From positions 1-22,227 of IMG/VR virus record IMGVR_UViG_3300044648_000023: DNA of 22,227 bases. One strand, given 5' to 3'. Shown here piece after piece: positions 6,055 through 21,941 of this stretch. Under the pieces are notes generated by a model, which saw nothing but the letters and a program-made list of their open reading frames with translations, made no database searches and had not been told where the DNA came from. Source of the stretch: a virus. Made by a program: the position numbers and the translations under genes. Position 1 is the first letter of the stretch; each line of letters begins with the position of its first letter.

Positions 6055-6450
6055 ATGTGGAATCCGTTTGCAGATGCGTCCGAAGGCGCGGTGAAGGGTC
6101 TCGGTTCCGCAATCAAGGATGCGGTCTCAGCCTTCAAAGCCGACCCGACGAAAGTTCTCGAACTCGAACACAACCTCGAAGTTGCCTTTATGAACTTCCA
6201 GGTCGGCATGGTGTCTGCGATCAACGCAACCATGCAAGCCGAAGCGAAGAGTGAACACTGGATGCAATGGTCCTGGCGACCGACATTCGGCTTCACCGGC
6301 GCAGGCGTCCTCGTCAACAACTACATTCTTCTCCCGTACCTCAAGCCGTTCGGCATTGTTCCCATCGAGGTTCCGAGTGAAGTGTGGTTGATGATCATGG
6401 CTGTCCTCGGCGTAGCTGCCTGGACACGAGGCAAATCAAAAATGAAGTAA
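6055..6450 (+). CDS. Holin, GTA 3TM-holin-like family
   Basis: 131 aa inner-membrane protein expected to form lesions that release endolysin. It resembles the 'holin of 3TMs, for gene-transfer release' family: a soluble helical N-terminus (about 1-65), the signature HWMQWSWRPTFGFT (68-81), a hydrophobic segment at about 79-96, a second at about 108-124 (EVWLMIMAVLGVAAW), and a basic tail RGKSKMK. Only two clear hydrophobic segments are visible; a third would have to be the amphipathic part around 41-57. AGGAGG at 6043-6048 gives a strong start. Its place between scaffold and capsid is unusual; no endolysin is visible nearby. Confidence 0.8.
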   Translation: MWNPFADASEGAVKGLGSAIKDAVSAFKADPTKVLELEHNLEVAFMNFQVGMVSAINATMQAEAKSEHWMQWSWRPTFGFTGAGVLVNNYILLPYLKPFGIVPIEVPSEVWLMIMAVLGVAAWTRGKSKMK

Positions 6451-11103: not shown

Positions 11104-11583
11104 ATGGCTGGCTATGTCCGAGGCTATCAACCTGGCGACGAAATCGAACTCGCCACACGTCTGCGTAAAGCGGATCTCGATGAAATTGAAGCAGCCTCGG
11201 GCATGAAGCCGGTCGATGCGTTGCGGGTGAGTGCGGAGTTATCCGCACCCGCCTGCTCGATCATCGACAACGATTGGGACGAGGGCGAAGTGGTTGGCAT
11301 GTTCGGCTGTGTACCGGACGGCACCGTTTGGCTCCTCGCGGCTGATGCGCTCGTTCAGCCTCCACTACGGCGACAGTTTCTCAAAGAGTGTCGCACGTAC
11401 TTGGACGCGCTCCCTTATCCCCTATTACACAATGTCGTGGACGAACGAAACACGGTCCACATTCGATGGCTACAGTGGATGGGCTTCACCTTCATCGGTG
11501 AGCCGATCCTTGTTGGCCCGAATAAACTTCCATTCCGAAAATTTGTAAGGATACAACCCTATGTGCATGGCAGGCGGCGGTAG
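11104..11583 (+). CDS. Internal virion protein A, T7 gp13-like (DUF2833, GNAT-like fold)
   Basis: 159 aa (T7 gp13 138 aa). The motif RKADLDEIEAASGMKPVDALRVS (22-44), the strand pair VVGMFGCVPDGTVWLLAADAL, and the C-terminal DERNTVHIRWLQWMGFTFIGEP, an acetyltransferase-like 'R.WLxxxGF' turn, fit the family. In T7 the protein assists virion morphogenesis and is not thought to remain in the virion in quantity; enzyme activity is not established. AAGGAGG precedes ATG 11104. The last 23 bases overlap the next gene in another frame. Confidence 0.85.
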   Translation: MAGYVRGYQPGDEIELATRLRKADLDEIEAASGMKPVDALRVSAELSAPACSIIDNDWDEGEVVGMFGCVPDGTVWLLAADALVQPPLRRQFLKECRTYLDALPYPLLHNVVDERNTVHIRWLQWMGFTFIGEPILVGPNKLPFRKFVRIQPYVHGRRR

Positions 11584-12298
11584 CGCAGGAGGAGGCGGCG
11601 GGCAGACTAGCACAGCAGGGGCCGCGATTGGTGGAGCCGCTGCCGGTGCATCAGCGGGCGCAATGTTAGGACCGTGGGGCGCAGCGGCGGGTGCGGTCGG
11701 TGGCGCGGCTATGGGCATCATCGGTTCACGCAACGCCAACAAGGCGGCGAAGCAAGCCGAAGAGGCGAAGCGCATTGAACAGGATCGTGTGATTGCGGAA
11801 ACGCGCAAGCGGGCCACTCAAGATTACCTCACACAAGTTCGACTCGATCAGTTGCAGAGAACTCAAGAGGAAACGGCGATCTCAGAGAAGGCCGGTGACA
11901 TTGTTCGTCAGCGTGACTTGACAGTGAGTACAGCGGTGTCCTCGGCAGCGGAGCGTGGTGTGGACGGGCGGTCGCTCGATCAGATCCTTGAGTCCTACCA
12001 CTTCGAAGCGAGCCAGGAAACAGGCCGACTCTACATCAACCAGGCAATGAAGAATCAACAGCACGGCGAGAATCAGAACCAGTACCTCGACCAGTACGGT
12101 CAGCGGTTCAACTCTCAGAAGGCGTATCAAAAGAAACCTATCGCGCCGGTCGATTACTTCTCTCCGATCTTCGGAGCGGTTGGCGACATGGGCAAGATTG
12201 CGATGGCCTCAGGCGCAGGCAAGACCGGCGGAACCCTTCCCTCAGGCGGTGGCCTGGATTGGGAAACCACTCCAGTCAACCCTGAAGAATACAAGTAA
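11561..12298 (+). CDS. Internal virion protein B, T7 gp14-like
   Basis: 245 aa (T7 gp14 196 aa). The N-terminus MCMAGGGSAGGGGG is followed by a Gly/Ala-rich hydrophobic stretch (about 18-54, AAIGGAAAGASAGAMLGPWG...) that can insert in a membrane, then a long charged helix/coiled coil (NKAAKQAEEAKRIEQDRVIA), and SSAAERGVDGRSLDQIL, the usual conserved block. In T7, gp14 is ejected first and forms a pore in the outer membrane for DNA entry. It starts 23 bases before the gp13-like stop; AAGGA at 11547-11551 is the ribosome site. The C-terminal Gly/Pro tail is probably disordered. Confidence 0.88.
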   Translation: MCMAGGGSAGGGGGQTSTAGAAIGGAAAGASAGAMLGPWGAAAGAVGGAAMGIIGSRNANKAAKQAEEAKRIEQDRVIAETRKRATQDYLTQVRLDQLQRTQEETAISEKAGDIVRQRDLTVSTAVSSAAERGVDGRSLDQILESYHFEASQETGRLYINQAMKNQQHGENQNQYLDQYGQRFNSQKAYQKKPIAPVDYFSPIFGAVGDMGKIAMASGAGKTGGTLPSGGGLDWETTPVNPEEYK

Positions 12299-12306
12299 GG
12301 AGACAC

Positions 12307-14448
12307 ATGGCTCGGTCAAATTTACCTACGCCTGATTCGATCAGCGGGCAGCAGAACATCGCCACACCTTTTACGGATCTTCAGCCAGCGGCGAGACCGT
12401 ACTCGGTGTTCACGCCTGAGACCGGCTTCGACATTCCCGACGCACCCAAGACCAACGGCTACATGCAGTTGGCCGGTGCGATGAAGGACTTGATGCCGGT
12501 AGCGATCCAGGGCGTGAAGTACGTCACCGACATCGATGATGAACGGTTGGTGAGCGAAGGTGCTGTGGCCGCAAGCAAGGCGGCACAAGACAAGAACGTG
12601 AAGGATCTGCACAGCGCGATGCGGGCGGGCTACCTGCCTGCCGGTGCTTCTCCCACGTTCATCAAGGCGTGGAAGGAGAACTTCCTCACGCTGCGAAGCG
12701 AGCAGGCCACCGATGAAATGCGAGCGGCCTACGAAGCGAACACTGAGTTGAAGACCAGTCAAGATCCCAACGCCTTCAACGCCTGGGCGAGTCAGTGGCG
12801 CGACAGCTACATGAAGTCCGTCCTCAACGGGGCAGATGGTCAAGGTCAGTACAGCGCCCTCGAAATCGCCAACAGCAAATTCAACGAACGCATTCAGCAT
12901 TCCATCTTCGGCCTCCACAAGGAACACATCAACGCGCAAGTCGCGGAACGTGAGAAGGTTGGTCGGCAGACAGCAGACAACCTGATGACCGCGCGACTCG
13001 ACGAAGCCTTCAAAGGGAAGGACTTCTTCAGCGTTGACTACGCCGCAGCCGCACAACGGTTGACGGACGTGTGGCAGGGACCGAACGGCATGGTCTCAAA
13101 GGGTGGTCTCAATGTCAGCGAGATCAATCCGGCCATCGCCAACGCGCTGATCACTCACGCGAAGATGACGCGCAACCCTGAAGTCCTCAAGGTCGCACAG
13201 TTCGTCAAGACGCCAGGTGGCACTCTTGCCGGTACATCAGCATGGCGAGCCGCAGAGCAGCAAGCTCGTGAGCATATTGCCAGCGAACAGTACCAAGAGA
13301 TGATGCGCCAGGACGCCGTGGATAAACTCGAAGCGGTGGGGACGCGCGAAGAACGTATCAAGTATTACTCGGACATGGCCGCGAAGGGCAAAGGTGATCT
13401 CGTGCGCGAACGGCTCACACGCGAGTTGTCTTCGGACATCTACTTGCGCGAGCCGAAGACGCAGGACGACATCAACGCCCGCGATGCCCGCATCCGAGAA
13501 CTGTATCAAGTGAACCCCGAAGCTGCCGGACACGTCTACAGCACCGTGCAGCAGATGGAGACCCGACAGAAGACCGAACACCGGACGCGCATCCACGATG
13601 AAATGGAAGGCACGATCCGTCAGGACATTCTCAACAACCCGCTCAACCCTGGTCACGAGAAGCGAATCATCGACGCATTCCGCAACGAGGTCATCGACAG
13701 AGACCAAATGCGGTCCATGCTCTCGTTCGTGCAAACGTATCGTGAGAAGGGCGCAGAGCCATCGGCGTTGAAAGATCCTGCGTACACGAACCTGGAGAAG
13801 GGCGTCTACGGTGGTGTGGTCAAGAACCTCGCCGCTATCGGCGGTATGGAAGCCGTGACGGCCAGCAAGGCGGCATGGGACTTCCGCAGCGAAGCACTCG
13901 ATCTGATCCGGCAGCATCCCGAGTTGGCCACGAATGGTCCGGCTCTCGCTGCCATGATGGAGAAGAGACAGTCGCCCATCGCTGAACGATACAACAAGGA
14001 ACTCACCACACTTCGCAAAGCCGACGAGGACAAGCAGGCGTTTGGAGAGTACCTCATCGATCTCGACAAGCAGATGAACAACCCGTCCCCGAACGAACAA
14101 CGGAAGACGGATATGCAGGTTGAGAAGGCGAAGGAGTTCGACAAGCGATTGAAGGCGCATGACGCAGATCCAGGCAACAACCCTGATCCGCGCGATGCCG
14201 CTTCGCAGAAGACCGATGCTACGAAGCCGGTCGAAGGTGCGAAGAAAAAGCAACCGACGCTCTCTGAGCTACGGGCCGCTTTGTCGCCGGAATCGATCTC
14301 GATACTCGGCAGCGCAATGAAGACTGCGCCCGAGGAGCAACTTAGGACGCTAACGCGAGGCATCTTCAGTCGGCACTACACCGACCCTGATGCTTTGAAG
14401 ACAGCGGTGGACGAGTTCATCAAAGCGAACCGTAAGAAGAAAAAATAA
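12307..14448 (+). CDS. Internal virion protein C, T7 gp15-like
   Basis: 713 aa (T7 gp15 747 aa), with large helical, charged segments. The region MQLAGAMKDLMPVAIQGVKYVTDIDDERLVSEGAVAA near residue 52 and the following helical repeats agree with core proteins that, after ejection, build the periplasmic tunnel with the gp16-type protein. The C-terminus ends in a basic cluster (NRKKKK). Low sequence conservation means the call rests mainly on length, position between gp14- and gp16-like genes, and the alpha-helical composition. AAGGAGACAC precedes the ATG. Confidence 0.82.
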   Translation: MARSNLPTPDSISGQQNIATPFTDLQPAARPYSVFTPETGFDIPDAPKTNGYMQLAGAMKDLMPVAIQGVKYVTDIDDERLVSEGAVAASKAAQDKNVKDLHSAMRAGYLPAGASPTFIKAWKENFLTLRSEQATDEMRAAYEANTELKTSQDPNAFNAWASQWRDSYMKSVLNGADGQGQYSALEIANSKFNERIQHSIFGLHKEHINAQVAEREKVGRQTADNLMTARLDEAFKGKDFFSVDYAAAAQRLTDVWQGPNGMVSKGGLNVSEINPAIANALITHAKMTRNPEVLKVAQFVKTPGGTLAGTSAWRAAEQQAREHIASEQYQEMMRQDAVDKLEAVGTREERIKYYSDMAAKGKGDLVRERLTRELSSDIYLREPKTQDDINARDARIRELYQVNPEAAGHVYSTVQQMETRQKTEHRTRIHDEMEGTIRQDILNNPLNPGHEKRIIDAFRNEVIDRDQMRSMLSFVQTYREKGAEPSALKDPAYTNLEKGVYGGVVKNLAAIGGMEAVTASKAAWDFRSEALDLIRQHPELATNGPALAAMMEKRQSPIAERYNKELTTLRKADEDKQAFGEYLIDLDKQMNNPSPNEQRKTDMQVEKAKEFDKRLKAHDADPGNNPDPRDAASQKTDATKPVEGAKKKQPTLSELRAALSPESISILGSAMKTAPEEQLRTLTRGIFSRHYTDPDALKTAVDEFIKANRKKKK

Positions 14449-14457
14449 GGATAACAC

Positions 14458-17400
14458 ATGGAACAGCCAACACAGCCTGATGAACTCGTGTTCGAAGATA
14501 AGCCCGCCGATCTCGGAGGCGCACAGCGCGTACCTCCGGTCGAGGACTTAGACTTCGGCACAGAGGTCGCCAAGATGGAACCGTCCTCGGGTGAACAGCC
14601 CGAGGGTAGCTCCGTCCTTGGTACGGTCGTGGACATTGGGAAGGGCATTGTCGCAGGAGCCGAGAGTGCTGTGGGCGGGTTACGTGAAACGGCGCGTGGA
14701 ATTGCTGACGCAACTGGTCTCTCTGATCTCGTAGGGGATCGGGAGACCAACGCGCAGCCACTCGAACACAAAGCTCCGCAGCCGGAACATGCCGCTGGAA
14801 AGATCACAGCGGATCTCGCACAACTGACGATTGGGTACATGGCCTCGCCTGTCAAGGCGGTGGGCTATGGATCAACCATCGTCAAGTCAGCGGTCGGCAC
14901 CGGCATTGTCGCCGATCCGAACCGCGAACGACTCAGCAACTTACTTGCCGAGAACTCGTGGTTGGAACCGATCTTCAGTCACCTTGCACAAGATCCATCC
15001 GACTCCGTTCTAGTCTCCAAGTCGAAGGCGATGTTGGAAGACGCAATGACGACAGCTATCGCGCAACCGGTCTTCTCCATGCTCCACCTGGGAGCGGTGA
15101 AGGCGTGGGAGTCAGTCAGTGGCAAGGTCTCACCCGTTGCGAAAGCGGTTGAGAAGGAGGCTGCTGCGGCCATTCAAAAGGTCGAGGCGTCTTCTCAGTC
15201 ATCCACTAATGGATTACATGCGTTCGAGCCGAAGGCAGCGGCCAAGGACATCGATCTGTCGATGGCCGTTCCTGGTACGAAGAACTTGGGCGAACAGGTG
15301 ATCCCTTTCGACAAGATCCGGCCAGGTCACGCGCTCGATACCGAGAAGGCACAACTGTCTCTTGGCAAGTATCAACGAAAGATTCTCGAAGAACCGGACA
15401 CCATCAGTGGCACCATCGTCACCAAGAATCTCGATGGCACGTACACGACGGTCTCCGGAAACGCCCGCCACGAAGCCCTCAAGCTCGCTGGCTACCAAGG
15501 CGTGAAGACAACTGTGATCGAGGAAGCCGGTACGCGCATGGCCGCTCAGGAAGCAGCCTTGCAACGTATGGGCAAAGTCATGTCGGCCAATGGCGACACG
15601 ATGGTTCCTCTCAAGCCAGCCGATCTCAAGAGACTCGGCGGCGTGATGACGAAGATGGTTGAGCGCACGTTTGACGCCAGCCCCGCCGATGCGGTGGTCG
15701 CTGGACACGTCAAGGGCGCGGTCAATCCGGCGCACCTTAAATCCTCAGAGCGAACACTCGACGCGATCTCAGAGGTCGGCAAGATTGCCCGACCGTACAT
15801 GAAGCTCGTCGAGCCGAAGTCGATGGAGGACACTCACGCGCTGGCAGCAATCCTGGGAGAAGATCCCGTTCAACTCTCCGGTCGGCTGCGGGTACTGCGT
15901 GGTGCGTTGGAAGACGCCGACGATGTGGCCCTCGGTGCGCGACAGGTTCTCCAGAACTACGCGCAGGACTTCGCTGACGCTGCCCGCAGGGCGGTGATCT
16001 CCGGTGATCCTGAAGCCGAAGCTATCGCAGTCACAGCATTCAAGCGACAGATCCAATTCCAATCAGACCTCTCTGCCGTAGCAACGGGCGGTGGTCGATT
16101 ACTCCGTTCGTTCGGTGAAGATGTTGGCGCGGCCAGCATCAAGAATCCCGAGGCGCTGTTGGCCGATCCGAAGAGAATGAAAGACCTCTTGCGAATCGCA
16201 GCGGCGACAAACGGTGACGCAGAGAAGGTAGCCCTGCTGGCGAAGTACGCAGCGATGGGCAAGTTCGAAAAGATCGTAGGAACGCACAACGAGTTCTGGA
16301 TGGGCGCGGGACTGCTCTCACGCTTCACAACCCAGACGGTGAACATTGGATCCACGGCGCTCAACAACCTGATGCAGCCCGCATCGATGGTCATTGGCGG
16401 TGGGTTCCAAGTGGTTCGCCGGAACGACTGGACACAGATTCGTGAAGGGCTCGCAATCTACAACGGACTGCGAACGTCCTTCTTCGATTCGATGCAAGTC
16501 GCAGGGCGCGTGTTCATGTCCGGTGCTGCGGAAATCTCCCAGTCCGGCACGATGGAGCAGAAGGTCAAGTACATCTCTGCTCTCGCGTACAACATGAACC
16601 CCGACAATTTCGCTGGCAAAATGGTGGACCTGTTCGGCAACGCTGTGCGCTTCTCATTCCGAGGACTCACGGCAGGCGACGAGTTCTTCAAGCAGATTGG
16701 CTATCGTGCGCGGCTCTCAGCTCGGTACTCCCGAGAAGGAGCTGATCTCGTGCGGGCCGGTTCGTTGCCGAAGAAGGATCTCGCCAAGTACATCCAAGAC
16801 AACATCGACAAAGCATTCAACACCAAGGGCGCGGCCATCGACGATGCGGCCATGAAGTACGCTGAGAAAGCGGCCTTCGTGAACGATCTCAAAGGCTCGA
16901 CCTGGGGTGACTACGCGACGATGGGAGAGATGGTCGCCAACCTCGCAGGCAACCCTGTGATGCGCGGCACACTCCTTCCGTTCGTGAAGACACCGACGAA
17001 CATCATGCGTACCACCTTCGAGTACACGCCAGTCATCGGCCAAATGCGCCGACAGTTCTGGACCGATGTAGCGAAGGGTGGCGAAGACGGTGCGATGGCA
17101 ATGGGCAAGCTCACGATGGGCGCTGGGTTCTATACCGGCGCAGTCATGCTGGCCCTCGAAGGCCGGATCACTGGTGCGCCTCCCGCGCCTGGGATGCAAA
17201 CGCCTCCTGGCTTCAAGCCGTACAGCTTCGTGATCATGGACGAGAACGGCAAGCCGACGAACTACATTCCGTATCAGCGTATCGCGCCGATAGGGAACAT
17301 CCTCGGTCTGACCGCCGACTTCACACAACTCGCTGGCAAGATTTCCACCGACGATGGCGACAAGCTCGCGCACTCGATGGTGATGACGCTGGCGAACAAC

Positions 17401-18177
17401 CTGATCTCGCAAACGTACCTCCGCTCGTTGACCGAGTTCTTCTCGATCTTCAGCGGGTACAACTCAGAAGCGAAAGTCGAACGCTACCTCCAGAACCGCG
17501 CAGGCTCATACGTGCCTGGTGCGCTCGCTCAGTTCAACTGGGATGAGGGCCAACGCGAAGTGCGAAGTATGCTCGATGCGATGATTGCGCGTGTGCCTGG
17601 TCTCTCACAGACCCTTCCGCCGAAGCGGGACTACCTCGGAGAAATCAAGCCGGTCACGATGGGCCTCCCCTGGTCGCTCATCTCACCGGTGCCTGTCTCC
17701 GACGCGAAGCCCGACAAGGTGATGGAAGAACTCGCGCGGCTATCGTCCTCTGACGCGCAGATCAAGTTCAGCGAGCCACCGCACAAGACCGTGCTGGCTG
17801 GCAAGGAAGTCGATCTGAAAGAAGTCACGAATAAGAATGGCGTCACGGCTTACGACCGGATGCTTGAACTCATCGGAACAGTAAAGCCTGCCGGTGAGAC
17901 CAAGACCTTCCGCAGCAAGCTAGAAAGCGTCATCGAAGATCAACGCTACAAGCAGGGCAACGATGGCTCGACCATGTTCCCTGGCCTACGCGCGAACATG
18001 ATCAAGGCCGAAGAGATGAAGTACCGGAAAGCGGCCTACGAGAAAGTGGTGGAGGAATACCGCGATGAGCTAGGTCTCCCGCGCTTCTCCCCTGTCCCCG
18101 TCATTCAAGGCATGGACAAGGCGAACCGCTCCCTCTCCAAAGCCGGTCAGGAACTTCTCCAGTACGGCGCTCAGTAA
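14458..18177 (+). CDS. Large internal (ejected core) virion protein, T7 gp16 position, with ParB/Srx-like domain
   Basis: 1239 aa (T7 gp16 1318 aa). It is expected in the ejected core that passes through the tail and spans the inner membrane. Order: Pro/Glu-rich N-terminus; Gly/Ala-rich amphipathic stretch (about 55-90); ParB/sulfiredoxin-like domain (about 279-358) with VIPFDKIRPG and SGNARHEALKLAGY; long helical middle; a block seen in large phage polyvalent-type proteins (RFTTQTVNIGSTALNNLMQP from about 622; GDEFFKQIGYRARLSARY near 741; NPVMRGTLLPFVKTPTNIMR near 837); a hydrophobic stretch (about 885-902); charged C-terminus. No SLT lysozyme-type motif was recognised near the N-terminus, unlike T7 gp16. 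AAGGA precedes the start. Confidence 0.85.
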   Translation: MEQPTQPDELVFEDKPADLGGAQRVPPVEDLDFGTEVAKMEPSSGEQPEGSSVLGTVVDIGKGIVAGAESAVGGLRETARGIADATGLSDLVGDRETNAQPLEHKAPQPEHAAGKITADLAQLTIGYMASPVKAVGYGSTIVKSAVGTGIVADPNRERLSNLLAENSWLEPIFSHLAQDPSDSVLVSKSKAMLEDAMTTAIAQPVFSMLHLGAVKAWESVSGKVSPVAKAVEKEAAAAIQKVEASSQSSTNGLHAFEPKAAAKDIDLSMAVPGTKNLGEQVIPFDKIRPGHALDTEKAQLSLGKYQRKILEEPDTISGTIVTKNLDGTYTTVSGNARHEALKLAGYQGVKTTVIEEAGTRMAAQEAALQRMGKVMSANGDTMVPLKPADLKRLGGVMTKMVERTFDASPADAVVAGHVKGAVNPAHLKSSERTLDAISEVGKIARPYMKLVEPKSMEDTHALAAILGEDPVQLSGRLRVLRGALEDADDVALGARQVLQNYAQDFADAARRAVISGDPEAEAIAVTAFKRQIQFQSDLSAVATGGGRLLRSFGEDVGAASIKNPEALLADPKRMKDLLRIAAATNGDAEKVALLAKYAAMGKFEKIVGTHNEFWMGAGLLSRFTTQTVNIGSTALNNLMQPASMVIGGGFQVVRRNDWTQIREGLAIYNGLRTSFFDSMQVAGRVFMSGAAEISQSGTMEQKVKYISALAYNMNPDNFAGKMVDLFGNAVRFSFRGLTAGDEFFKQIGYRARLSARYSREGADLVRAGSLPKKDLAKYIQDNIDKAFNTKGAAIDDAAMKYAEKAAFVNDLKGSTWGDYATMGEMVANLAGNPVMRGTLLPFVKTPTNIMRTTFEYTPVIGQMRRQFWTDVAKGGEDGAMAMGKLTMGAGFYTGAVMLALEGRITGAPPAPGMQTPPGFKPYSFVIMDENGKPTNYIPYQRIAPIGNILGLTADFTQLAGKISTDDGDKLAHSMVMTLANNLISQTYLRSLTEFFSIFSGYNSEAKVERYLQNRAGSYVPGALAQFNWDEGQREVRSMLDAMIARVPGLSQTLPPKRDYLGEIKPVTMGLPWSLISPVPVSDAKPDKVMEELARLSSSDAQIKFSEPPHKTVLAGKEVDLKEVTNKNGVTAYDRMLELIGTVKPAGETKTFRSKLESVIEDQRYKQGNDGSTMFPGLRANMIKAEEMKYRKAAYEKVVEEYRDELGLPRFSPVPVIQGMDKANRSLSKAGQELLQYGAQ
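15292..15531 (+). other. ParB/sulfiredoxin-like domain within the gp16-position protein
   Basis: Residues about 279-358: QVIPFDKIRPG (strand and IRP motif), a spacer, ISGTIVTKNLDGTYTTVSGN, then ARHEALKLAGYQGVKTTVIEE. The GNARHEALKLAG block corresponds to the GxRRxxAxKxAG nucleotide-binding box of ParB-type domains. ParB-like domains occur in phage and plasmid polyvalent proteins such as P1 DdrB/DarB. Whether it binds CTP, cuts DNA or does neither cannot be told from sequence. Confidence 0.65.
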
Positions 18178-18235: not shown

Positions 18236-19822
18236 ATGTATTCAATCGTAGACCTAGCAGGGACGGAAGGTCAGTCGAATTTCAACTTCTCCTTCCAGTA
18301 CCTCAGTGAAGCACACATCCATGTGTACATCGATAGCGTGGAGACCGAGGACTTCACGTTCTCTGCCGCGTTCACGATTACGCTGGATACGGCGCTGACC
18401 GCAGCGGCCACTGTTCGCATTCGGCGCATCACGCCCATCGACGAGCAGATGGTGGACTTCTCCAACGGCTCGGTGCTGGGTGAGACCGATCTCGATACCT
18501 CCGTTCTGCAAGTCCTCTACGCGCAGCAAGAGTTGGATGATTTCAACGAAGGCACCATGACGCTCCAGCAGAACGATGCTGGAAACTGGGACGCCGAGAA
18601 CACGCGCATCGTCAACCTCACTTCGCCGGTCGATCCGACGGACGCCGCCTCGAAGTCATACGTGGATGCCCAACTCGCAGCGTTCGCGCTCGGGGAAGGC
18701 TTCTCACTCCAGGGCATCAGTGGTGTCGATCCCACAACCACAGTAGATAAGGGTACGTTCCTGGTGGGCGATGGTGGTGCGCCTTCGGAGCTAGTCGATT
18801 TCAACATCGGCAACAACGGCGAACTCCTCACGGTAGACACAACCCAACCGACGAACCTCAAGTGGGAATCGCTCATGGCGAAGCTGCTTGCGCTTCTCAC
18901 CACGAAGGGCGACATCGGGGTGTCAACCGGCGCAGTCATCCAGCGCAAAGCGGTCGGCAGCGACAATCAGGTTCTCGTCGCAGACTCCAACGAAGCCGAC
19001 GGTTTGGCATGGAAGGGCGTAGCAACCATCCTCTCATCCATCGGCGGTGCGATTGTGGGAGTCCCAAGCATCGTCAACCTTCGAGGCTTTTGGGCGTCAG
19101 CCACCAGCTTCACGTTCTCATCGACCGCTGTGGTGTTGCAGAACACCGCAGGCGCGTGTGTGCGAGTCGCAGGGAACACAGCAGGCTGCGACATTTCGCA
19201 AGCCGGTCCCGTCGCAAGCGGGCGTGACCAGGTTGGCGCATTCAGTCCCAGTTCATATGTTCACTTCTACTACATCTGGAACGGGACAAACCTCGACATC
19301 ATCGCAAGCACAGCGGCCCCGACACACTCCACAGGGCCAACTCTCCCGAACGGCTACACGCACTGGTGCTACATCACCACGTTGCCGCTCAACGCGAGTA
19401 CGCAACTCAACCAGCACGTTGTCATGGGCAACACGGTCTACAGAGACCCGTGGGATGTCATGTATCAACTCTGCTCCAAGACCAATGCGAGTGAAGAACT
19501 CTTCACATCGTCAACGGTGCTGCCGACGATTGCTATGTCAGCGCAGTTCGAAATCCATCTAAGCGTCAGCGACAACTCTGCTGCCGCTGGGGATAACATC
19601 ACGTTCTACCTGCGACAGACCTCGGGCGGTGGTAGTGGTTGGTCGATGATTACACCAGTGACGTGTCAACCATCGGTGAACGGCATCGCCGCTCACGCGC
19701 AGTTCTCGCTCAATGTTCCGTACCTCTCTGGCTACTATGTTCTGCTGAGTGGTTCGGGAACAGTTACCTCGTTCACTCTGACCATCCACGTCACTAGTTA
19801 CACGGTGCCAAACAACTCATAA
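18236..19822 (+). CDS. Tail fibre protein 1, T7 gp17-like N-terminus
   Basis: 528 aa (T7 gp17 553 aa). Residues 1-105 are the gp17-type virion-attachment domain (VDLAGTEGQSNFNFSFQYLS, RIRRITPIDEQMVDF, LQVLYAQQELDDF). Next come the trimer-type repeat ENTRIVNLTSPVDPTDAASKSYVDAQL (121-147), a LLTTKGDIGVSTG...VGSDNQVLVADS module common in fibres, and a beta-rich distal part ending in serine/threonine-rich strands (VTSFTLTIHVTSYTVPNNS) that should contact the host surface. The phrase YYIWNGTNLDIIASTAAPTHS...LPNGYTHW is a widespread fibre-tip pattern. No peptidase or depolymerase motif is recognised. AAGGA at 18225-18229 starts translation. Confidence 0.9.
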   Translation: MYSIVDLAGTEGQSNFNFSFQYLSEAHIHVYIDSVETEDFTFSAAFTITLDTALTAAATVRIRRITPIDEQMVDFSNGSVLGETDLDTSVLQVLYAQQELDDFNEGTMTLQQNDAGNWDAENTRIVNLTSPVDPTDAASKSYVDAQLAAFALGEGFSLQGISGVDPTTTVDKGTFLVGDGGAPSELVDFNIGNNGELLTVDTTQPTNLKWESLMAKLLALLTTKGDIGVSTGAVIQRKAVGSDNQVLVADSNEADGLAWKGVATILSSIGGAIVGVPSIVNLRGFWASATSFTFSSTAVVLQNTAGACVRVAGNTAGCDISQAGPVASGRDQVGAFSPSSYVHFYYIWNGTNLDIIASTAAPTHSTGPTLPNGYTHWCYITTLPLNASTQLNQHVVMGNTVYRDPWDVMYQLCSKTNASEELFTSSTVLPTIAMSAQFEIHLSVSDNSAAAGDNITFYLRQTSGGGSGWSMITPVTCQPSVNGIAAHAQFSLNVPYLSGYYVLLSGSGTVTSFTLTIHVTSYTVPNNS

Positions 19823-20135: not shown

Positions 20136-21941
20136 ATGGCCTACAGTTACGTCGATCTCGCTGGCACAGCCGGTCAGCAGAATTTCAATTTCAGTTTCTC
20201 GTACCTGTCGTCCACACACTTGTCCGTCTACATTGACTCAGTGTTGACGACGGCGTGGAGCTTGACCTCGACCTTCACCGTGCGCCTCGACTCCGCATTG
20301 GCCGCAGAAGCGACCGTGCGTATCCGGCGCGTCACTCCCATCGATGAACCCGTTGTGGACTTCACCGGTGGATCAGTCATGGCCGAGTCGGATCTCGACA
20401 TGGCGTTCCTCCAGATCATCTACGCGGAACAGGAGCTAGAGGACTTCACTGATCTCTCGACGCTCGCCGCCGAAGTTGCCAACGCTGCGGCCAGTGCTGC
20501 CGCTGCGCTCGCCAGCCAAACGGCTGCGGCTGCATCTGCGGCTGCTGCTGCACTTGCTGAGACCGCTGCTGAGTTGGCTGAGACCAACGCAGAGACCGCA
20601 GAGACAAACGCCGAACTCGCAGAGACAAACGCGGAGGCCGCAGAAGCGGCTGCTGCGATCAGTGCTGCGGCGGCGGCTGCATCAGCGACCGCTGCTCAGA
20701 CGGCAGAGACCAATGCAGAGACCGCAGAGACAAACGCAGAGACAGCAGAGACAAATGCCGAAGCAGCACAAGCGGCTGCCGAAGCTGCCCGCGATGCGGC
20801 TCTCACAGCGCAGACGGCAGCGGAACTAGCGGAGACCAACGCAGAGACCGCAGAGACCAACGCGGAGTTGGCAGAGACCAACGCCGAAACCGCGGAAGTG
20901 AACGCCGAAGCTGCACAAGCAGCGGCGGAAGCGGCTCAAGCTGCGGCGGAAGCTGCGGCTGCTGAGATCGTTCAATACACGAACGCCAATCCGATCATCA
21001 ACCCTTGCATGGACATCTGGCAGCGCGGGACGAGCTTCTTGTCTGCTGCGTCCGGTATCTATACTGCCGACCGTTGGGCCTACAGCAAGAGCAACGCCGC
21101 AGTTCACGACATCACTCAAAGCACAGACGTTCCTACGGTTGCTGAGGCTGGTGTCAAGTTTAATGTCTCGGTCCTCGTAGATTGCACCACCGCCGATGCT
21201 GCTGTTGCGGCTGGCGATTACGTGCAGTTCTATCAGGTCATCGAAGGCTACAACTGGAAGCACTTCGCACAACGCGCCCTCACGCTCACCTTCTGGGTGA
21301 AGGCGACCAAAACAGGCATCTACTGTCTCTCGCTCACCAACACTGGCGGCGACCGTACATTCCTCGCAGAGTACACGGTCAACGCGGCTGATACGTGGGA
21401 AAAGAAGACCATCAACATTTCCGCCTCTCCGAGTGCAGGAACGTGGGACTACGGGTCAGGACATGGACTCATCGTCCGGTTCTGTCTCGTGAGCGGCACG
21501 ACCTACCAGGGATCAACTGGCTGGTCTACCGGCAACTTCCTCGCCACAGCAAACCAAGTCAACGCTTGTGACAACACAGCGAACAACTGGCGTTTGACCG
21601 GCGTGAAGATGGAGCTTGGATCGACGGCGACTGATTTGCGGTGGCGATCCTTCCAAGAAGAAGTACAGTTGTGTCAGCGGTACTACGAAACTCGGTCAGC
21701 AACCCTTTGGTCTGGCGAAGTCGTCAACCCACAGGTGTACTACCACAGTCAATCGTTCAATACGTTCAAGCGAGCCTCGCCCACGATGGCCTATGGGTTC
21801 ATCGGACAAAACGGGTTTGCGGCCTCCGTACCGGCAACTTTCTCAGCGGAGAGTCAGGGATTCACTTCCTTCAAAGCTGCGAACGCAACTGTCTCGGGTG
21901 GGTTCCTTCACTATTCATGGACCGCAGACGCGGAGTTGTAA
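20136..21941 (+). CDS. Tail fibre protein 2, gp17-like N-terminus with long Ala-rich coiled coil
   Basis: 601 aa. Residues 1-105 closely match fibre 1 (SYVDLAGTAGQQNFNFSFSYLS, RIRRVTPIDEPVVDF, FLQIIYAEQELEDF), so both should attach at the same tail site. Residues about 109-278 are an Ala/Glu/Thr/Asn repeat (AETNAET units of seven) forming a long coiled-coil shaft. Residues from 285 (NPIINPCMDIWQRGTSF ... YTADRWAYSKS) to ELGSTATDLRWRSFQEEVQLCQRYYE form the jelly-roll-like carbohydrate-binding type module common at phage fibre ends, followed by about 80 further residues. It begins one base after the previous stop, with AGCAAGGAATCTAAG as a modest ribosome site. Confidence 0.9.
   Translation: MAYSYVDLAGTAGQQNFNFSFSYLSSTHLSVYIDSVLTTAWSLTSTFTVRLDSALAAEATVRIRRVTPIDEPVVDFTGGSVMAESDLDMAFLQIIYAEQELEDFTDLSTLAAEVANAAASAAAALASQTAAAASAAAAALAETAAELAETNAETAETNAELAETNAEAAEAAAAISAAAAAASATAAQTAETNAETAETNAETAETNAEAAQAAAEAARDAALTAQTAAELAETNAETAETNAELAETNAETAEVNAEAAQAAAEAAQAAAEAAAAEIVQYTNANPIINPCMDIWQRGTSFLSAASGIYTADRWAYSKSNAAVHDITQSTDVPTVAEAGVKFNVSVLVDCTTADAAVAAGDYVQFYQVIEGYNWKHFAQRALTLTFWVKATKTGIYCLSLTNTGGDRTFLAEYTVNAADTWEKKTINISASPSAGTWDYGSGHGLIVRFCLVSGTTYQGSTGWSTGNFLATANQVNACDNTANNWRLTGVKMELGSTATDLRWRSFQEEVQLCQRYYETRSATLWSGEVVNPQVYYHSQSFNTFKRASPTMAYGFIGQNGFAASVPATFSAESQGFTSFKAANATVSGGFLHYSWTADAEL
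20460..20969 (+). repeat. Alanine-rich 21-bp repeat region encoding the fibre 2 shaft
   Basis: About 510 bases, codons 109-278 of fibre 2. The unit GAGACCAACGCAGAGACC and variants recur many times, interspersed with GCT/GCG alanine runs. The repeated heptad (AETNAET, AETNAEL, AQAAAEA) suits a coiled coil. Recombination or slippage between units could change shaft length. The antisense and +2 frames here are composition artefacts. Confidence 0.85.

Follow-up and report, generated by a model that had tools for sequence, protein, structure and literature searches.

The ejection proteins of T7-type phages are regarded as a conduit for DNA with, at most, an added cell-wall hydrolase, whose place can shift between gp15 and gp16 (PMC8954989). 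The locus described here raises the question of what such a protein may carry when the lytic domain is missing and a ParB-like domain is present. The stretch analysed ("the window") comprises 22,227 nt, one strand, of the IMG/VR record IMGVR_UViG_3300044648_000023. An initial annotation had placed a 1239-a.a. protein of this window at the T7 gp16 position, and the surroundings agree: Pfam annotation of the window gives the T7 gene order gp11-gp12-gp13-gp14-gp15-gp16-gp17 around the ORF, which follows the gp14 and gp15 positions and lies ahead of the tail fibre, and the PHROGs family phrog_6651 ("internal virion protein") matches a.a. 570–1089, in the C-terminal half, with an E value of 4.7e-46. 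The structural genes before gp13 encode the portal (PF12236), scaffold (Phage_T7_Capsid), capsid (Gp10A-like), tail tube (Tube) and nozzle. The ejection cassette consists of the following genes.

11104–11583, + strand: gp13-like protein, upstream in the cassette (Pfam Phage_T7_Gp13, E 1.9e-4, slightly under the family cut-off)
11561–12298, + strand: gp14 internal virion protein (Pfam T7_gp14, E 4.7e-12)
12307–14448, + strand: gp15-position ejection protein, 713 a.a. (assigned by position; no Pfam family up to E 5)
14458–18177, + strand: gp16-position ejection (internal virion) protein, 1239 a.a. (ORF, phrog_6651 match and gene order)

Two tail-fibre genes lie near each other (18236–19822 and 20136–21941), both with the T7 fibre N-terminus, and the second contains long AETNAETAE repeats. 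The window also encodes a three-TM holin (6055–6450; GTA_holin_3TM, E 3e-13) between the scaffold and capsid genes, and the N-terminal domain of a dATP/dGTP diphosphohydrolase (1218–1700; E 1.4e-6).

The ParB/sulfiredoxin (Srx)-like block had been reported at 15292–15531, which in frame corresponds exactly to residues 279–358 of the 14458–18177 ORF, and both VIPFDKIRPG and SGNARHEALKLAG are present there as quoted. With the window sequence alone, the profile matches were weak but concordant (Pfam ParB_N, E 0.13; ParB-like PHROG, 0.09; NCBIfam SbnI, 0.07, and Noc, 0.11; PDB SbnI, 1.6), and the Pfam, NCBIfam and PHROG scans of this single domain were set aside as proof, their scores being too weak to decide. 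A tblastn search of the domain alone against phages returned a Lactococcus ParB-like gene as its sole match (E 0.2), the phage collection searched yielded no isolate with the domain, and L011, an apparent IMG/VR match of the ParB query, proved to be a tape-measure protein with chance similarity. We accept the domain despite the weak single-sequence scores because its relatives settle the question. A profile built from the domains of three relatives scored the window at 37.2 bits, compared with 9.0 for the best of 2000 shuffles. A four-domain family profile matched SbnI in the PDB at 3.7e-7, together with Noc, Spo0J/ParB, and SerK-type and ParB-nuclease-type chains, and SbnI was still the top match (2e-4) when L092 was left out. 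Pfam ParB_N also matched the relatives L092 (E 4.4e-4) and L012 (E 1.2e-3).

The predicted structures point the same way. In an AlphaFold model of residues 1–681, the longest confident stretch spans about 280–357 and the rest is poor, and the domain modelled alone has a pLDDT of 81–90 across model residues 20–100. Its elements (E19-27, E31-33, H40-55, E63-67, E73-75, H79-87 and E92-99) follow the beta-beta-alpha-beta-beta-alpha-beta order of the ParB/Srx fold. Foldseek matched the model to Srx, the pNOB8-like ParB N-domain, SbnI, Noc, ParB and KorB, and VIA placed most of that set at Z 8–10.6, the structures in this range being those of Srx, SerK, SbnI, ParB and Noc; the best-scoring plainly unrelated fold reached 4.0. 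Profile matches, relatives and comparison of the model with known structures thus bear out the proposed domain, and residues 279–358 adopt the ParB/Srx fold.

The absence of an SLT transglycosylase motif was likewise confirmed: no Pfam SLT match appeared in the 1239-a.a. protein among matches up to E 5, whereas T7 gp16 scored E 1.7e-31 in the same scan. This had been regarded as special to the protein, an idea that the relatives contradict. In the N-termini of 111 relatives, SLT was absent from the families listed (for the first 72, the best 25 of 29, the remaining four having E values of 0.036 or worse), and none was found in the whole records of 16 relatives, with the T7 control positive; the absence is therefore a lineage-wide trait. 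Phage lysozyme was present in 2 of the 16 whole records, in separate small genes. The 713-a.a. gp15-position protein has no hydrolase domain among Pfam matches up to E 5. In Vibrio phage ICP3 and some other closer T7 relatives, the alignment to T7 gp16 begins only after the SLT region. By Pfam profile, a.a. 1–270 of the window protein appear to hold no hydrolase; because the 681-a.a. AlphaFold model is poor outside the ParB block, structure leaves room for a cryptic hydrolase fold there.

The family architecture, compared across 146 relatives of the gp16-position protein, has a variable slot between a conserved N-terminal block and a conserved core. In the window protein these parts lie as follows.

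14770–15102, + strand: conserved N-terminal block, a.a. 105–215 (profile present in 121/146 relatives)
15277–15525, + strand: ParB/Srx-fold domain, a.a. 274–356 (AlphaFold, Foldseek, VIA and profile matches; common to L092, L174, L012 and L093)
15457–15468, + strand: GxxR phosphate-binding (Box II / P) motif, G334-N-A-R337
15526–16257, + strand: remainder of the variable slot, from the ParB domain to the core, a.a. 357–600 (12–35% conservation, length varying among relatives)
16258–17907, + strand: conserved C-terminal core, a.a. 601–1150 (57–59% identity to the closest relatives, ~40% to the wider clade)

The four relatives that carry the ParB domain at the equivalent place are 33–46% identical to the window protein. 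L012, 34–37% identical over nearly the whole protein, has SGNGRLAAAKALG at the equivalent position, and L093 has SGNGRLQAAKQLG; the closest relatives, L092 and L174 (46%), show the more classical DGRHRLLAAREEG and DGRHRVEAAKAQG. All four came from IMG/VR. L174 was recovered at E 2.4e-12 by a ParB profile built without it. The close relatives L094, L095 and L013 retain the core and lack the domain, and in the core tree the carriers then known (before L174) and the close non-carriers belong to a single starred set with eight members, which requires at least two state changes. Slot lengths differ as well: 372–395 residues in the first-found carriers versus 274 (L095), 314 (L094) and 167 (L013) without ParB. 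Among the five carriers, identity is 20–32% in the ParB block, 38–58% in the N-block and 39–59% in the core, and this faster divergence fits an effector under diversifying pressure and also fits a relaxed domain. The window domain is more identical to those of L012/L093 than to those of its core sisters L092/L174; these identities hint at module exchange, with separate histories of core and ParB, but five-row unrooted trees of both gave the same topology and do not support it. Separately, in the L111 record a distinct 332-a.a. ORF elsewhere in the genome (G011:C1:38882-39163) matches ParB_N weakly and below the cut-off (E 1.1e-5).

In relatives from other clades, the slot holds different domains. 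L143:2931-7169 has a PBECR3 RNase domain (a.a. 373–491, E 1.2e-21) and L074:4536-10571 a methyltransferase match (a.a. 761–851, E 6.7e-7); helix-turn-helix matches occur in L057 (a.a. 298–392), and a Phage_L5_gp82-like segment in L061 (a.a. 432–545) and L147 (a.a. 407–518). The ejection proteins of L074, L057, L061 and L147 are very long (1609–2012 a.a.). In seven proteins of one clade (L025, L027, L029, L030, L062, L076 and L081), an ART-PolyVal ADP-ribosyltransferase with the N-terminal motif YHGSPxxFxxF...GEGAQAYGYGLYFAE stands ahead of the N-block. Since relatives have ART-PolyVal, PBECR3 or methyltransferase domains in their counterparts of this protein, the polyvalent-type setting proposed in the initial annotation is upheld.

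Some relatives depart from this layout. L014, a further close relative in which no ParB was detected, has a 525-residue slot with no convincing Pfam family, and it is one of five (with L008, L129, L078 and L130) whose slots are unusually long (403–525 a.a.) with no such family and are possible carriers of cargo. L041, L046, L053, L112, L119 and L150 are short (870–898 a.a.) and begin near the core with no N-block, which may be encoded on its own elsewhere or have been lost. Relatives were also seen on bacterial contigs (L157, Leisingera; L162, Nitrincola; L165, Parvibaculum; L170 and L173, Mucispirillum) and in Pelagibacteraceae single cells, possibly as prophages or co-assembled phage DNA.

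The reading that we favour, with moderate confidence, is that an ejection protein devoid of SLT delivers the ParB/Srx domain as an interchangeable effector module that binds NTP. The space between the conserved N-block and the core would serve as a cargo slot, filled here by a ParB/Srx-fold domain with its GxxR motif. By its gene position and by analogy with T7 gp16 (PMC8954989), the 1239-a.a. protein would be packaged in the phage head and threaded into the host along with the genome. The domain would then lie in the cytoplasm, bind an NTP (CTP or ATP) and act early in infection, either as an NTP-controlled nuclease or as a binder directed at host defence or nucleotide pools, a role parallel to that of the ART, PBECR3 and methyltransferase domains in the matching proteins of relatives. 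The cell wall might be breached by another protein, or no dedicated enzyme might be needed.

The main rival of the effector reading is that the fold acts on the phage's own DNA, as an NTP-gated clamp or sensor within the gp16 ring and thus as a part of the ejection machine. Such a domain would grip the entering DNA, or sense arrival in the NTP-rich cytoplasm, as ParB-CTP clamps DNA. T7 gp16-C has been modelled as a DNA-binding cytoplasmic ring (PMC8954989), clamping under the control of a CTP switch is known for the ParB fold (PMC12704722), and the GxxR motif is retained. We nevertheless consider this rival unlikely. L094, L095 and L013 share the core without the domain, and ejection therefore works in its absence, which counts against an essential role; unrelated enzymes occupy the slot in other relatives; and no Pfam match to the canonical ParB HTH (parS-binding) or dimerisation domains follows the fold in the 1239-a.a. 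protein. A degenerate fold, inactive, without a ligand and retained purely as a structural spacer, would account for the low identity among carriers in the domain, the weak Pfam score and the absence of the catalytic residues of Srx and of SerK/SbnI-type kinases. This is decidedly unlikely given what has been kept: the P motif retains both its G and its R in 5/5 carriers, the S-G-N-R-A-K-G positions are invariant in three, and the sister contig L001, 99.6% identical to the window with 31 nucleotide differences in the gp16-position gene (mostly synonymous), has zero nucleotide differences and zero amino-acid changes inside the ParB domain. In the ParB-CTPase fold the R-to-A change of GxxR serves as the non-binding control, showing that the motif matters for NTP binding (PMC12704722); from its sequence, NTP binding by the present domain is not certain.

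The motifs also bear on which family the domain belongs to. The catalytic cysteine of sulfiredoxin (GCHR) is absent and the 1239 a.a. include zero cysteines, so Srx chemistry is excluded. The glutamate column of SbnI is occupied by H291, making serine-kinase activity unlikely, and DGxHR has Ser in place of its Asp; the catalytic residue of SbnI is here presumed to be the equivalent of SerK E30, in line with the titles of E30-mutant structures. Membership in the P1 DdrB-ParB family, which the initial annotation had entertained, did not hold up. A true DdrB-type anti-restriction domain acting as in P1 would agree with the packaging of DdrB in the P1 head (PMC5512222) and with the SGNGR of L012 and L093, which equals that of P1 DdrB. 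It was already disfavoured, and we regard it as highly improbable: H79-87 runs directly into E92-99 where P1 DdrB has ~40 residues, so that the DdrB-specific helix with its conserved Tyr is absent; hhalign against the P1 sequence alone gave a probability of 0.3%; and neither a Pfam ddrB-ParB match nor a metallopeptidase domain was obtained for the 1239-a.a. protein. Lacking both the cysteine of Srx and the extra helix of DdrB, the domain is, as far as motifs and model indicate, neither Srx nor DdrB-ParB.

Extended from the window protein to the large SLT-less T7-like branch, the effector reading would make the gp16-position protein a general delivery platform, a fixed chassis with defined sites for cargo, where ParB, RNase, ADP-ribosyltransferase and methyltransferase domains are swapped, that injects a different early enzyme in each phage; we see the chances of this broader proposal as evenly balanced. 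An ejection protein with a ParB/Srx domain may double as a delivery vehicle whose slot elsewhere holds other host-attacking enzyme domains. If the variable slots do carry interchangeable effectors, a small podovirus could deliver enzymes before its own genes are expressed, and the slot domains would provide a list of candidate factors for anti-defence and takeover, drawn from phages that abound in the environment.

Compared with known systems, the window protein resembles T7 gp16 in its gene position, the gp14-gp15-gp16 cassette and its size (1239 versus 1318 a.a.; PMC8954989), but it has no SLT and carries ParB/Srx, and profile–profile comparison of the family with T7 gp16 detected no homology (hhalign probabilities of 1.7% and 0.5%); its predicted ejection role therefore rests on gene order and annotation. 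It resembles SbnI and the SerK free serine kinases, SbnI being the best PDB sequence match and superposing at 2.4 A over 77 residues, and differs from them at the glutamate and DGxHR positions and in that no second kinase domain was matched. With the ParB-CTPase-fold fusions (PMC12704722) it shares the fold with its GxxR P motif, fusion to another protein and a phage setting, whereas a fusion to an ejection protein is absent from those described in the domain section of that paper. No title found in our literature search reports an ejection or internal virion protein fused to a polyvalent, ART, ParB or anti-restriction domain, and no mention of gp16, ejection or T7-like was found in the polyvalent-protein survey (PMC5512222). 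Phage head proteins with ParB domains are already known, as are ejection proteins with swapped lytic domains; for ParB/Srx, and more broadly the conflict-type set, in the gp16-position protein of SLT-less T7-like phages, we found no earlier account in the literature searched. Phage polyvalent proteins are predicted to be packaged and to enter the host with the DNA (Iyer et al. 2017, PMC5512222), and ART-PolyVal and PBECR domains are of the kinds described in them. The window protein differs from these in its T7-like gp16-position ejection core, in the single recognised domain of each family member, in the absence of a matched metallopeptidase and in a ParB domain that is not of the DdrB type. 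It is like them as a large, late-gene, virion-type protein with conflict-type domains, in a family that includes ART-PolyVal and PBECR3; by domain and position it is a candidate polyvalent protein, one that, by analogy, would be delivered into the cell with the genome.
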